Part shown: piece by piece, positions 3,106 to 63,270 of the stretch
Numbering within the stretch: position 1 is the first letter of the stretch
How the letters are laid out: every line of letters starts with the position of its first letter
NCBI GenBank assembly: GCA_944354535.1
Contig: CALVPY010000003.1
Span: 21,028 to 85,027, forward strand
DNA length: 64,000 bases
Direction: 5' to 3'
Origin: an uncultured Clostridia bacterium
GTDB lineage: Bacteria > Bacillota > Clostridia > Christensenellales > Borkfalkiaceae
Notes under the pieces: generated by a model
Told to the model about the DNA's origin: nothing
The model's database searches: none
The model's input: the letters and a program-made list of their open reading frames with translations, nothing else
Made by a program: the position numbers and the translations under genes

Positions 3106-4302
3106 TTATTTTCTCACGATCTTGACGCGCACCTTCTTGCCCTTGAAGAGGGTGAACTCCCCTTCGGGCAGCGCCGCGTTGGGGTCGGTCGCCTTCTCGC
3201 CGTTCAAAGAGACGCCGCCCTGCTCGACGAGCCTTCTTGCCTCGCCGTTGCTCTTGCAAAGCCCCGCCTCGACGAGCGCCTGCGTCAAAGTAGCCGCCTC
3301 TTTGGAGATGGCCTTTTCGGGCATCTCGCCCTCGCCGCCGAACGCGGCGCGCGCCTGCGCCTGCGCAAGAGACGCCTTCTCCTCGCCGTGGACGAGCTTG
3401 GTGAGCTCGAAGGCGAGCCGCTCTTTTGCGGCGTTGATGCGCTCGTCGCGGTGCGCGCAGAGCTCCGCGATCTCTTCAAGCGGCAAAAACGTCAAGAGCT
3501 TGAAGCACTTCTCGACGTCATCGTCCGCCGTATTACGCCAGTACTGATAGAATTCGTAAGGGCTCGTCTTGTTCTCGTCCAGCCAGACGGCGCCCTTCTG
3601 CGTCTTGCCCATCTTCTTGCCCTCGCTCGTCGTGAGCAGGGTAAACGTCATCGCAAAGGCGGGCTTTTGCTCCTTGCGGCGGATGAGGTCGGCGCCCGCC
3701 AAAATGTTGCTCCACTGGTCGTCGCCGCCCAGTTCGAGCTGGCAGCCGTACTTGCGGAACAAAACCAGAAAGTCATATGCCTGCATGAGCATATAGTTGA
3801 ATTCGAGGAAGGTGAGCCCCTTCTCCATGCGGGAGCGGTAGCACTCCGCCGTGAGCATCTTGTTGACGGAGAAGTTCGCGCCGATCTCGCGCAGGAAGTC
3901 GATATAGTTGAGGTCGAGGAGCCAGTCGGCGTTGTCGACGATGATGGCGCCGTTCTCGCCCTCGAAGCGGATGAAGCGCGACATCTGCTTTTTGAAGCAT
4001 TCGACGTGGTATTTGACCGTCTCGCGCGTCATCATGGAGCGCATATCGGTGCGGCCCGAAGGGTCGCCGATCATGCCCGTGCCGCCGCCGATGAGGATGA
4101 TGGGCTTGTGGCCGGCGTCCTGCATATGGCGCATGGCGATGAGCTGCATGAAGTGCCCGACGTGCAAACTGTCCGCCGTGGGGTCGAAGCCGATATAGAA
4201 GGGCACGCTCTCTTTGCCGAGCTTTTCATAGAGCTCGTCCTCGTACACCGTCTGCTTGATGAAGCCGCGCGCACGCAGCGTGTCCATGACATTTTGTGAC
4301 AT
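3106..4302 (-). CDS. tyrS: Tyrosyl-tRNA synthetase
   Basis: A class I aminoacyl-tRNA synthetase that charges tRNA-Tyr. At 398 residues it has the HIGH-type motif HVGH at 47-50, the KMSKS-type motif KMGKT at 230-234, the tyrosine pocket word GGDDQW near 192, and a C-terminal S4 RNA-binding domain from about 335 to the end. The Shine-Dalgarno AAGGAG lies 10 nt before the ATG. It is preceded by a promoter, a 25-codon Tyr-containing leader peptide and a terminator (listed separately), which suggests control by tyrosine or Tyr-tRNA supply rather than by the usual Bacillota T-box. Confidence 0.96.
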
Positions 4303-4327
4303 TGTTCTTTACTCCTTGTGTTCAAAT

Positions 4328-4364
4328 AAAAAACGGTCTGCGCCCCGCATTTGAGCGCAAACCG
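4328..4364 (-). terminator. Leader terminator (attenuator) before tyrS
   Basis: On the minus strand a 10-bp stem CGGTTTGCGC / GCGCAGACCG (one G.U pair) is followed by six U residues, 26 nt upstream of the tyrS start codon. The 5' arm (4355-4363) can instead pair with 4392-4400, which overlaps the stop codon of the leader peptide; that pairing would prevent terminator formation. Confidence 0.8.
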
Positions 4365-4394
4365 TGCATGACCGTTTGTTCTGCCGCACCCGAT

Positions 4395-4472
4395 TTACGC
4401 GCAAAAGCACCCCGACGCTTCGCCGCGGTAAAGATACTTGCCGTAAATTGCGAGGGACATTTCGTGCTTCAT
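4395..4472 (-). CDS. Candidate tyrS leader peptide (25 aa, Tyr-rich)
   Basis: A 25-codon reading frame, MKHEMSLA-IYGKYLY-RGEASGCFCA. It starts at the first transcribed bases after a perfect promoter and ends inside the attenuator. Three Tyr codons fall within six codons (residues 10, 13, 15). The RNA segment spanning the first Tyr codon (AUUUACG, 4442-4448) is exactly complementary to CGUAAAU at the leader stop codon (4393-4399). That stop-codon segment (GCGUAAAUC) can also pair over 9 bp with the terminator 5' arm. This is the layout of ribosome-mediated attenuation. There is no room for a Shine-Dalgarno, so translation would be leaderless. Inference from sequence only. Confidence 0.65.
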   Translation of the reverse strand: MKHEMSLAIYGKYLYRGEASGCFCA

Positions 4473-4479
4473 GTCACTC

Positions 4480-4508
4480 ATTATACACGCGGAAATGCCG
4501 TTTGTCAA
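4480..4508 (-). promoter_or_regulatory. Sigma-A promoter of the tyrS leader
   Basis: The -35 is TTGACA (4503-4508), the spacer 17 nt, and the -10 TATAAT (4480-4485), a consensus match on the minus strand. The predicted start is about 4472-4473, at the ATG of the leader peptide. The leader transcript is about 170 nt. Confidence 0.85.
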
Positions 4509-4605: not shown

Positions 4606-4634
4606 TTGACAAAATATAAAAACCATGCTATCAT
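4606..4634 (+). promoter_or_regulatory. Promoter of the WYL regulator
   Basis: TTGACA (4606-4611), 17-nt spacer, TATCAT (4629-4634). It is divergent from the tyrS promoter, with about 95 bp between the two -35 boxes. The mRNA leader would be about 35 nt. Confidence 0.75.
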
Positions 4635-4674: not shown

Positions 4675-5601
4675 ATGAAGACGCAGACGCTCATCGGCAT
4701 CCTCTTTACCCTGCTCGAACGGCAGCGGATGAGCGCGGGCGAACTTGCCCAAAAGTACAACTGTTCGGTGCGCAGCATCCTGCGCTATACCGACGAGCTC
4801 ACCTGTTCGGGCATCCCCATCGACGTCGCGCGCGGAGCAAACGGCGGCATCGGCATTTCGGACGCTTTCAAGCTCCCCGGCGGGCTCCTCACGCGCGAAG
4901 AGGCGGCGCGGCTCCATGAAGCGCTCCTTGCGATCAACGAACAGCTGCGCGATCCCGCGCTCTCTTCCGCCATAAAAAAGTTTGAAGAACGGTACCCGTC
5001 CGAGGCAGGGGAGCCCGCCTCGCTCGGCAACATCCTCGTCGACAGCGGCTCCTGGGGGGATGAACACAACTTTTCCGACAAACTTGCCCTTCTCGACCGC
5101 GCCATCACGGAGCGGGAAGAACTTACGATCGACTACGTCGACCGCGAGGGCGAACGCTCCCGCCGCCGCATCCTTCCCCATCTTCTGGTGCTCAAACAAA
5201 ACGTGTGGTACGCCTTTGCCTGGTGCCGGATGCGCGAAGGATTCCGCCTCTTCAAGCTGGGGCGGATGCGCTCCGTGGTAAAGACGGGCAAGACGTTCGA
5301 ACGCCGCCCCTTTTCCCGTAAGGACATCCCGCTCGGCTTTTGGCCGACGGAGAGCACCACGGTGTATGCGCGCTTTGCAATTTCGCCCGAAGCGCTCCCC
5401 TTCGCGCAGGATTGGCTGGGCGTCGAGAATATCGTAACGCGGGAGGGCATCCACACCGCCGACGTCGCCCTCCCCGACGACGAGTCGCTCATCGGCAAGA
5501 TCTTATCGGCAGGCGCAGGGCTCAAGGTGCTCTCTCCCGGGTCGTTGAGAGAGCGCGTCGCCGCCGAAGCCCGCCGCCTCGCCGCACAATACGAGGCATG
5601 A
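4675..5601 (+). CDS. HTH and WYL domain transcriptional regulator
   Basis: A 308-residue YafY/DeoR-type regulator. A winged HTH_11-like domain lies at about 1-60 (LLERQRMSAGELAQKYNCSVRSILRY). A WYL ligand-sensing region spans about 140-215, with the Trp-Tyr pair in QNVWYAFAWC. A C-terminal WCX-type extension follows. WYL proteins bind ligands such as nucleotides or oligonucleotides and control diverse targets; the target here is unknown. The start has GGAGGAAGGAAC before the ATG. It stands alone between tyrS (divergent) and a repeat region. Confidence 0.88.
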   Translation: MKTQTLIGILFTLLERQRMSAGELAQKYNCSVRSILRYTDELTCSGIPIDVARGANGGIGISDAFKLPGGLLTREEAARLHEALLAINEQLRDPALSSAIKKFEERYPSEAGEPASLGNILVDSGSWGDEHNFSDKLALLDRAITEREELTIDYVDREGERSRRRILPHLLVLKQNVWYAFAWCRMREGFRLFKLGRMRSVVKTGKTFERRPFSRKDIPLGFWPTESTTVYARFAISPEALPFAQDWLGVENIVTREGIHTADVALPDDESLIGKILSAGAGLKVLSPGSLRERVAAEARRLAAQYEA

Positions 5602-5732: not shown

Positions 5733-6010
5733 CACCTCCCCTGTGCAAGGGGTGAGCAAGTGCTTTCTTGCAAAGAGCCCGGTGGGCTCTTTGCCACTTG
5801 CGAACTTGGAAATGCCCCATTGTTCGGGGCATTTCAGGGCTCCCGCGCAGATGCGAAGCAGATGTGTGGGAAGAGGAGACGCAAGCCGAGCGGTCAAGCC
5901 GCGAGGAACGCAGCGGCGGACAAACGGGCTTTGCGGCGACGAGAGCGCGGTCTCTACCGCGCGAGACGGTGGCTTGCCAAAGGCAAGACGGAAGGGTTGT
6001 CATGCCCTCA
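5733..6010 (+). repeat. Dispersed two-hairpin element, copy 3 (family R1)
   Basis: Hairpin A is CAAAGAGCCC-GGT-GGGCTCTTTG (5771-5793). Hairpin B is AAATGCCCC / GGGGCATTT (5810-5834). An inserted agggctcccgc word carries a GA/GA hairpin at 5842-5870 (CCCGCGCA-GA-TGC-gaa-GCA-GA-TGTGTGGG). Right-hand words match copy 1 (ccgagcggtcaagccgcgagg) and copy 2 (gacggtggcttgcc...ggcaagacgg). Confidence 0.65.
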
Positions 6011-6606: not shown

Positions 6607-6651
6607 ATTGTCAAATAAGTCGATCTGCGCAGAGAACTTATTATTTTCAAA

Positions 6652-6907
6652 CAAAGGAGCACTACAAAAGTATGCTGCAAACACAAGAGAAAAATCAAAC
6701 GATGGACGAAACCCGTCTTTTAGAAGAACTTCTGCTCGCCGTGCGCGACGTTTTTGACTGCCTCATCGTGCAAAGCGGGCAAAAAGCCCTTCTGCATTTC
6801 GAAGAGGGCGTCTTCTGTCTTTCCCTGCAAAAGCTGCCAACACGGGATGGTACATAAGAGGATACCCCCATAAAACGCAGGCGGCGCGGCGGAATGCTCC
6901 GCCGCGC
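6652..6907 (+). repeat. Direct repeat unit 1 (61-aa gene plus 3' hairpin)
   Basis: About 255 bp covering the ribosome site, the 61-aa gene, the constant 3' sequence (gaggatacccccataaaacgcagg) and a GC-rich hairpin. It is nearly identical to 7530-7784. The duplication ends at the hairpin on the right. Confidence 0.75.
6672..6857 (+). CDS. Uncharacterised 61-aa protein (copy 1)
   Basis: A small protein of unknown function with an acidic, Leu-rich N-terminal half (LLEELLLAVRDVFDCLIV) likely to be helical, then LHFEEGVFCLSLQ, which looks like a beta hairpin, and a polar tail ending RDGT. It is 59/61 identical to the copy at 7547, and 5 of 9 base differences are silent, which argues that the protein is made and constrained. 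AAGGAG lies about 12 nt before the ATG; an internal ATG at codon 11 is an alternative start. It is divergently paired with an XRE gene. Confidence 0.7.
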   Translation: MLQTQEKNQTMDETRLLEELLLAVRDVFDCLIVQSGQKALLHFEEGVFCLSLQKLPTRDGT

Positions 6908-6955
6908 CGAAAAAGATACGCCGCGGGGCGGACGCTGTTCGCGTCCGCCCCGCGG
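6878..6955. repeat. GC-rich hairpin pair between 61-aa gene and XRE copy 2
   Basis: GGCGCGGCGGA...TCCGCCGCGCC and GCCGCGGGGCGGACGC...GCGTCCGCCCCGCGGC. They lie between two convergent genes and are near-copies of the pair at 5613-5695. Confidence 0.55.
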
Positions 6956-7484: not shown

Positions 7485-7529
7485 ATTCTTACAAAAGCAA
7501 TGCGCGCAGCTTTTGTCAAATCAAAAATA

Positions 7530-7784
7530 AGGAGCACTACAAAAGTATGCTGCAATCGCAAGAGAAAAATCAAACGATGGACGAAACCCGTCTTTTAGAA
7601 GAACTTCTGCTCGCCGTGCGCGACGTTTTTGACTGCCTCATCGTGCAAAGTGGGCAAAAAGCCCTTCTGCATTTTGAAGAGAACGTCTTTTGCCTTTCCC
7701 TGCAAAAGCTGCCGACACGGGATGGTACATAAGAGGATACCCCCATAAAACGCAGGCGGCGCGGCGGAATACTCCGCCGCGCCG
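7530..7784 (+). repeat. Direct repeat unit 2
   Basis: The second copy of the unit at 6652-6907, about 95% identical. Similarity extends from the ribosome site through the coding region and 3' flank into the first GC-rich hairpin (7753-7787), then stops. Confidence 0.75.
7547..7732 (+). CDS. Uncharacterised 61-aa protein (copy 2)
   Basis: It differs from copy 1 only at residues 4 (Ser for Thr) and 46 (Asn for Gly). Same ribosome site, same downstream sequence. Function unknown. It is divergent from XRE copy 2 and followed by a GC-rich hairpin and then murG. Confidence 0.7.
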   Translation: MLQSQEKNQTMDETRLLEELLLAVRDVFDCLIVQSGQKALLHFEENVFCLSLQKLPTRDGT

Positions 7785-49738: not shown

Positions 49739-50236
49739 TCAGATCTTCTCGGCGCGCTTTTCGCCCTTCTGCTCCTCTTCCGCCTTGTACTCCATCATCT
49801 GCTGCAATTCGCGCATGAAAGAGGAAATATCCTTGAAGGAACGGTAGACGGAGGCATAGCGCACATAGGCGACTTCGTCGAGCTCTTTCAATCCCTCCAT
49901 CACCATCTCGCCGATCTGCTTGGACGAAACTTCCTGGACCATGGAGTTGTAGAGCCTCTTTGCGACGTCGTCGGCGAGGGCGTCGATCTTTTCGATGGGC
50001 ACGGGGCGCTTTTCGCACGCCTTGATGATGCCGCGCTTGATTTTGCTCACGTCGAACGCCTGGCGGGTGCCGTCGTTCTTGACGACGAGGATGGGCTGGA
50101 CTTCGATCGTCTCGTACGTCGTGAAGCGCCTGCCGCAGCCCATGCACTCGCGGCGGCGGCGGATGGTGCGGTCGTCGTCCGCCGAGCGGGAATCGATGAC
50201 CTTGCTCTCCGTGCAGTTGCAGTATAAACAGCGCAT
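49739..50236 (-). CDS. nrdR: Transcriptional repressor NrdR
   Basis: Nucleotide-sensing repressor of ribonucleotide reductase genes. 165 residues: zinc ribbon with C3, C6, C31 and C34, then an ATP-cone domain (PILVVKNDGTRQAFDVSKI). The nrd target genes are not in the window. Confidence 0.96.
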   Translation of the reverse strand: MRCLYCNCTESKVIDSRSADDDRTIRRRRECMGCGRRFTTYETIEVQPILVVKNDGTRQAFDVSKIKRGIIKACEKRPVPIEKIDALADDVAKRLYNSMVQEVSSKQIGEMVMEGLKELDEVAYVRYASVYRSFKDISSFMRELQQMMEYKAEEEQKGEKRAEKI

Positions 50237-63092: not shown

Positions 63093-63270
63093 TTCTCACG
63101 CCCTCCCTGTGCAAGGGGCGAGCAAATGCTTTCTTGGCAACGCCACAGTGTGGCGTTGACCATTTACGAGCTTGGGGATGCCCCATTGTTCGGGGCATCC
63201 CCTGACCGAGCGCGGTCTCTACCGCGCGAGATGCTGCCGAGCGAAGCGAGGCGGAAGGGTTGTAAAGGTC
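63093..63270 (+). repeat. Dispersed two-hairpin element (family R1), direct copy
   Basis: Hairpin A is CAACGCCAC-AGT-GTGGCGTTG (63138-63158); hairpin B is GGGGATGCCCC / GGGGCATCCCC (63174-63202). Flanking words as in copy 1, ending ggcggaagggttg. Confidence 0.65.

Follow-up and report, generated by a model that had tools for sequence, protein, structure and literature searches.

In Bacillota, tyrS is a textbook T-box gene, and Henkin et al. reportedly presented it as a classical T-box gene in 1992. Most aminoacyl-tRNA synthetase (aaRS) genes of Firmicutes use T-boxes, and, according to the same source, no Firmicutes aaRS gene was known as of 2005 to be under classical attenuation, while attenuators are given there for trpS and leuS in Streptomyces and for pheST in gamma-proteobacteria (PMC1262725). 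Leader-peptide attenuators have been described in Bacillota at several other genes: His leader peptides precede hisS*/hisZ of Bacillus (Naville and Gautheret 2010, PMC2965389), his-operon attenuators are reported from Peptostreptococcaceae, Lutispora, Erysipelotrichales and the B. cereus group (PMC9413887, 2022), and a leucine attenuator of the Staphylococcus aureus ilv operon is backed by mutant and reporter evidence (PMC5794164, 2018). By these accounts, the premise of an earlier note on the DNA analysed here, that leader-peptide attenuation is described mainly in Proteobacteria and Actinobacteria, was too narrow.

Here we describe the region upstream of tyrS in a gut Clostridia bacterium from a large genus of uncultured Clostridia (genome of 1.93 Mb in 53 contigs, approximately 93% complete). 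The window is the whole 64-kb stretch of this DNA that was analysed. The locus appears to carry a leader-peptide transcription attenuator of the trp/his type, sensing the charging of tRNA-Tyr and controlling tyrS, a reading to which we assign a probability of about 85% and under which the interpretation offered in the earlier note is supported in substance. The design is classical; the target tyrS and the specificity for tyrosine are apparently undescribed in the open-licence PMC literature, a search of which gave no report of tyrS or tyrosine leader-peptide attenuation among the matches listed.

Leader anatomy upstream of tyrS

The leader and tyrS lie on the minus strand of the window. The promoter, read in the sequence and recovered by a promoter scan, consists of a -35 box TTGACA (4503-4508) and a -10 box TATAAT (4480-4485), matching the consensus at 12/12 positions over 4508-4480 with a 17-nt spacer. 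The leader ATG (4472-4470) follows the -10 box by 7 nt and opens a frame of 25 codons plus TAA (4395-4472, stop at 4397-4395), which is predicted to be leaderless and has the same layout in related leaders. The window contains a single copy of the pattern of promoter and ATG, and none of 100 shuffles contains any. The encoded peptide, MKHEMSLAIYGKYLYRGEASGCFCA, has Tyr at codons 10, 13 and 15 (4443-4445, 4434-4436 and 4428-4430 in the reading frame). Segment 1 (AUUUACG, or ATTTACG in DNA; 4442-4448) contains Tyr codon 10 and can pair over 7 bp with segment 2 (GCGTAAATCG / GCGUAAAUCG; 4391-4400), which overlaps the leader stop and has either segment 1 or segment 3 as its partner. Folding and alignment place an inner hairpin between segments 1 and 2 (4408-4430); at this place most of the leaders compared by eye have a hairpin whose 5' arm carries the Tyr-Tyr codons and whose 3' arm carries the stop region. 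Segment 3 (CGGUUUGCGC; 4355-4364) serves both as the 3' arm of the putative antiterminator and as the 5' arm of an intrinsic terminator hairpin formed with segment 4 (13 pairs, 4333-4365), which runs into a U6 tract (4328-4333) whose first U is shared with the stem. Downstream follow a Shine-Dalgarno-like AAGGAG (4312-4317) and tyrS itself (3106-4302), the predicted regulated gene for tyrosine--tRNA ligase, whose product matches TIGR00234 with an E-value of 2.4e-125 and 418.8 bits against a cut-off of 113.8. The consensus promoter, the 25-codon frame with its three Tyr codons, the pairing of segments 1 and 2 and the terminator with its U6 tail had all been put forward in the earlier note and hold as described; the pairing of segments 2 and 3 (4400-4391 with 4364-4355) holds as well but spans 10 bp, one pair more than the 9 bp originally given.

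The leader RNA of the window folds with z = -2.85 (1 of 200 shuffles equally good) and its antiterminator piece with z = -2.55 (3 of 200). The 10-bp duplex of segments 2 and 3 taken by itself is marginal (shuffle p = 0.05); the strength of the case derives from the relatives.

Other features of the window

A divergent gene on the plus strand (4675-5601) resembles by eye a helix-turn-helix regulator, has no NCBIfam match and is preceded by a promoter-like site (4606-4634, 11/12). Elsewhere, a dispersed 74-nt repeat with a variable inverted-repeat centre occurs at 384-457, 2260-2333 and 5750-5823, the copies being 77-81% alike; its 9-nt core recurs at 63138, and a similar sequence was seen by eye upstream of a metS-like gene (L230). 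A 284-nt duplication (6626-6909 and 7501-7784, 92% identical) adjoins small ORFs that by eye resemble XRE-type regulators. ARAGORN reports a tRNA-Lys (ctt) at 50047-50125 on the plus strand, and the Rfam scan of the window at gathering score gives no tRNA; this tRNA may be degenerate or unusual.

Distribution among relatives

A covariance model built from 12 leaders was searched against 101 genomes of the genus and found the element in 39, the present genome included, each time 5' of tyrS and with one strong match per genome; 12 of these 39 matches are the model's own rows. All 39 matches with E <= 1.7e-5 are tyrS leaders, and the next one (L211, 1.8e-5) and four weaker ones (L212, L214, L215, L216) have neither a tyrS motif nor such an ORF. 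Two leaders from a search of a named collection (L044, L046) complete a set of 41; since the leaders are related and were found through similarity, counts over this set are descriptive rather than independent. The named-collection set comprises 80 loci, of which 29 were read upstream of tyrS (3 of them duplicates) and 20 screened with Rfam, with 3 shared between the two. A closely related locus, from the uncultured Clostridia bacterium isolate BRZ_FB__bin42, encodes a TyrRS 94% identical to that of the window, and Sheep_Colon and Roe_deer_Cecum are among the titles given to records from further relatives.

A set of 37 genomes of the genus, again with the present one, yielded readable sequence before tyrS in 35; the leader occurs in 15 of these and tyrS stands without it in the other 20. 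At the level of the order, 151 genomes were searched, at least 3 of them members of the family from outside the genus. Matches at E <= 0.05 came from 20 genomes beyond the genus, and the eight of these loci that were inspected (L195-L202) showed no tyrS motif in a narrow search and no adjoining short frame with promoter and ATG.

Tyr codons in the leader peptides

Conservation of the Tyr codons in relatives, which the earlier note had proposed as a check, is borne out in 41 of 41 leaders, that of the window and 40 related ones. Their ORFs span 14-27 codons with 2-6 Tyr codons each, in both spellings (85 TAC, 65 TAT), and in all 41 the ORF is followed by a hairpin and a T-rich tract, five being placed by hand (the terminator hairpins of L166, L170, L173 and L180 were set and L046 was added). 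Across 35 distinct peptides, Tyr accounts for 130 of the 626 codons after the start (20.8%), compared with a mean of 4.1% and a maximum of 6.5% in 300 dinucleotide shuffles of the same ORFs. The other two frames hold 2/591 and 9/591 Tyr codons, TAY triplets thus being nearly confined to frame 0. The listings of frames with promoter and ATG were made without requiring Tyr, and one later collection step took only frames holding it. In 37 of the 41 leaders, the segment 1 that was found contains a Tyr codon.

The common peptide type is MKHSLAVAIYGYAYYVLA. Sixteen distinct 18-codon ORFs keep the same amino acid at most of codons 4-15, a constancy expected if the nascent peptide itself arrested the ribosome in the manner of TnaC, the switch reading peptide sequence and free tyrosine rather than codon starvation. 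This subgroup was chosen by its SLA and AIYGY motifs, so that its constancy is partly by construction, and the conserved codons also form segment 1 and the inner hairpin, so that RNA pairing can account for it. The conservation does not extend to the whole set, in which strongly divergent peptides such as MKKQFPKTYFSYRPL, MNGTRFAIYLPYCG and MKTDLFAATYLYYRIG share, apart from the start, little except tyrosine. We regard peptide arrest as improbable, and read the Tyr codons as the sensor of tRNA-Tyr charging.

Competing helices and covariation

The longest duplex between segments 2 and 3 averages 10.8 bp, against 6.8 bp in shuffled sequences. It reaches p <= 0.05 in 31 of 41 leaders and exceeds it in 10, with L210 at p = 0.88. 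Position 6 of segment 3 was tabulated over 36 distinct sets of segments. With segment 4 it forms G-C in 28 sets, A-U in 7 and G-U in 1; segment 2 faces it with U-G in 24, U-A in 7, C-G in 4 and G-G in 1, proportions that lean upward because the register of segment 2 was picked for best pairing (in L044 it differs from the reading by eye), the duplex shuffles serving as the control. In the seven sets with A at this position the partner in segment 4 is U, a clear two-sided change in the terminator stem that the competing duplex follows, as the U of segment 2 still pairs (U-A). The changes between segments 2 and 3 at this position are each one-sided relative to the commonest pair, U-G.

In an alignment of 12 leaders, paired cells amount to 87.9% in the antiterminator form and 91.9% in the terminator form, and fall to at most 52.3% and 50.5%, respectively, when slid by 1-3 columns. 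For both forms, none of 500 shuffles and none of the slid versions attains the observed paired cells or covariation score; pair types are not exceptional (57 and 77 of 500 shuffles as high), and the observed number of pairs with two-sided change is reached by 20 and 11 of 500, two of the five covariation measures lying within reach of the shuffles. Two-sided changes affect three pairs of the inner hairpin and two of the terminator, and none relative to the commonest pair was found in this alignment between segments 1 and 2 or between segments 2 and 3. The pair counts given here are on the low side, as the alignment (A2) shifts segment 2 in L005 and in L007. Of the covariation proposed as a check for the four segments, the compensatory changes between segments 3 and 4 and the accompanying changes between segments 2 and 3 are thus present, but the pairing of segments 1 and 2 shows no two-sided change.

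Folding with and without a ribosome

From the parts, their conservation and their covariation, we infer a start site, translation, stalling, an order of folding and a response. Judging from the promoter, transcription would begin at the AUG or no more than a few bases from it, and the ribosome would start without a Shine-Dalgarno sequence. When Tyr-tRNA is scarce, the ribosome would stall on the clustered Tyr codons, leaving segment 1 unpaired and the inner hairpin open; segment 2 would pair with the emerging segment 3 as the antiterminator, and tyrS would be transcribed. When Tyr-tRNA is ample, the peptide would be completed, and a ribosome at the stop codon would cover segment 2 in a long leader such as that of the window; alternatively, the ribosome would depart and segment 1 would re-pair with segment 2. 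Segment 3 would then pair with segment 4 and transcription would end.

Equilibrium folding was computed with a ribosome on the Tyr codons, at the stop codon, or absent, for transcripts ending after segment 3 and for full transcripts. In transcripts reaching segment 3, the mean antiterminator probability over 41 leaders is 0.97 with the ribosome on the Tyr codons, 0.59 at the stop and 0.68 without a ribosome, the corresponding values for the leader of the window being 1.00, 0.04 and 0.82; the ribosome-free state, too, favours the antiterminator. In full transcripts, the mean terminator probability is 0.77, 0.89 and 0.85, and 1.00 in every state for the leader of the window. The computed folds agree with the proposal that a Tyr-stalled ribosome blocks the terminator only as long as segment 4 has yet to be transcribed; in complete transcripts at equilibrium, the terminator mostly prevails. 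The switch would therefore have to be kinetic, the antiterminator acting on a moving polymerase by pairing first and persisting for a sufficient time. For the nascent transcript, these computations make the starved half of the model a robust one.

The replete half, as modelled, depends on the size of the ribosome and the order of folding. With footprints of 10, 12 and 15 nt, a ribosome at the stop codon leaves the antiterminator of the window at probabilities of 0.02, 0.04 and 0.75. The 11 leaders of at least 24 codons give 0.12, 0.08 and 0.14, and the 30 shorter ones 0.81, 0.78 and 0.40. Masking of segment 2 by the terminating ribosome, as suggested in the earlier note, accordingly fits the long leaders, including that of the window, but not most relatives, whose ORFs are shorter and end approximately 7-15 nt 5' of segment 2. 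A ribosome just starting, at codon 2, gives antiterminator probabilities of 0.82-0.87, and in the leader of the window a ribosome placed almost anywhere ahead of about codon 20 leaves segment 2 free. With segment 2 freed at almost any early position, specificity would come from the Tyr codons and not from geometry.

The dominance of the terminator in full transcripts in all states of the window leader, together with the absence of the leader from 20 of 35 readable genomes of the genus, would be compatible with the hairpin being a constitutive partial terminator and the ORF non-functional. That the ORFs are enriched in Tyr in frame, keep the position of their ATG and lie among competing helices that change in coordination argues against this explanation, which we judge very unlikely.

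T-boxes and other RNA families

A T-box, or another riboswitch that binds tRNA-Tyr directly, with the ORF as an accident, is suggested by the standing of tyrS as a classical T-box gene and by six T-box matches in the same genome, two of them above the gathering score. Judging by eye from the frames that follow, these six precede leuA-, trpB-, pheS-, cysE-cysS-, thrS- and ileS-like genes; Pfam matches on the same contigs are consistent with pheS (PF01409), and for the thrS- and ileS-like genes they bear out the synthetase fold (PF00587, PF00133). None of the matches lies on contig 3, which holds the window. In the 64-kb window no Rfam 15 family, T-box RF00230 and the amino-acid leaders included, matched at gathering scores, and near the leader a search at E <= 10 gave no T-box, the sole Rfam match being a miRNA model on the opposite strand. 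A T-box at the tyrS of the window is rejected on these searches, in agreement with the earlier note, and the near confinement of TAY triplets to frame 0 speaks further against an accidental ORF; we consider a tRNA-binding riboswitch extremely unlikely here.

Among leader-free members of the genus, 19 of the 20 such loci (all but L120) were searched at the gathering score and likewise gave no T-box before tyrS, and near a second tyrS of one genome (L147 of G004; 31% identical) only a tRNA was found. In other families of the order, 20 pieces upstream of tyrS gave no Rfam match at E <= 0.01 (L130 and L144-L146 were left out); 20 more distant tyrS loci included one T-box (L110). The contrast with T-box control of tyrS in Bacillota therefore stands with respect to the literature but not locally, where the nearby families examined are also without a T-box at tyrS, and a direct replacement of a T-box by the leader is not demonstrated.

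Probable gain and loss of the leader

A TyrRS tree was built with 54 rows, of which 16 have the leader. The trait requires 7 changes on it, and 5 of these changes are forced by well-supported branches. Shuffles require 14.2 changes on average, and none of 500 was as low as 7. The tree left out L021, which has the leader, L027, which the search motif missed, the duplicates L037, L039 and L041, and L045, which is cut off upstream. Leaders are found on both early and late branches of the group. Two loci appear by eye to be remnants: L013 keeps the promoter and a terminator-like hairpin and has no Tyr ORF, and L052 keeps the promoter and the terminator and has no ATG. The first of these was also recovered as a weak match of the covariance model before the tyrS of G018 (E 0.11). 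From these sequences, a single gain followed by frequent loss is probably the best fit, several independent gains being a tenable alternative. The genus holds dozens of natural variants along with decayed remnants and relatives that lack the leader, and so allows the acquisition and loss of an RNA sensor to be compared directly at one gene.

Predicted leaderless initiation

Leaderless initiation is of the 70S type. The near-leaderless ORF is the most unusual trait of the element. The distance from the -10 box to the ATG is 6 nt in 23 leaders, 7 nt in 13, 9 nt in 3 and 10 nt in 1; these make up 40 of the 41, and the remaining leader (L046) has a poor -10 box, with a spacing of 9 nt by eye. The genome holds 17 sites with TTGAC, spacer and TATAAT followed by an ATG 5-9 nt on, and none with the reversed pattern. 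As 12 of the 17 open frames of at least 204 codons, leaderless starts look routine in this genome. In four leader-free members of the genus (L020, L024, L026, L028), the ATG of tyrS itself lies 6-9 nt past a -10 box and is apparently leaderless. Among 209 Firmicutes genomes, a survey found leaderless genes in 56, with a concentration in Lactobacillales and Mycoplasma (PMC3160421).

A second near-leaderless short ORF, MKTAFYVSLRGICFRGSKRKYQ, lies outside the window, on contig 20 of the same genome from base 204 (L159 / L234), and is followed by a strong terminator-like hairpin and then by a gene that resembles purE by eye. The peptide is similar in all five strong DNA matches, that of the present genome included (L234-L238); among the 101 genomes searched, six others gave short weak matches only and 90 none. 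It is not rich in any single amino acid and could be an arrest peptide.

A broader and rather doubtful reading is that the tyrS switch, with its AUG so close to where the transcript starts, would depend on leaderless initiation and belong to a class of leaderless attenuators, reading the capacity for leaderless starts together with the charging of Tyr-tRNA, the tyrosine leader being one member of a wider set in the lineage, with a second, conserved one before the purE-like gene and T-boxes serving other synthetase genes of the genome. The near-leaderless start in any case offers a natural test of whether leaderless initiation supports attenuation in a Gram-positive lineage.

Comparison with known attenuators

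The genome combines T-box matches before pheS-, thrS- and ileS-like genes with what appears to be, before tyrS, a tyrosine leader peptide instead. The T-box (RF00230) shares with the proposed attenuator both the target tyrS and the response to tRNA charging in other Bacillota, and none is found at the leader of the window. The leaders of Bacillus hisS*/hisZ are likewise attenuators before aaRS-type genes of Bacillota and are reported to have replaced T-boxes there; they concern histidine and Bacilli, in contrast to tyrosine, tyrS, Clostridia and a near-leaderless ORF in the present case (PMC2965389). The his-operon attenuators also consist of a leader peptide, an antiterminator and a terminator, and some of them are found in Clostridia (PMC9413887). 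The ilv leader of S. aureus is similarly a codon-rich leader peptide of Bacillota, but answers to leucine and precedes a biosynthetic operon (PMC5794164). The attenuators of trpS and leuS in Streptomyces and of pheST in gamma-proteobacteria share aaRS genes as their targets, in other phyla and for other amino acids (PMC1262725). A parallel for the position of the ORF is provided by trpL of Sinorhizobium meliloti (rnTrpL), whose attenuator RNA has the start of the leader ORF at its 5' end; that system serves trp genes in Alphaproteobacteria, and its RNA and peptide are described as acting also in trans (PMC7298713).
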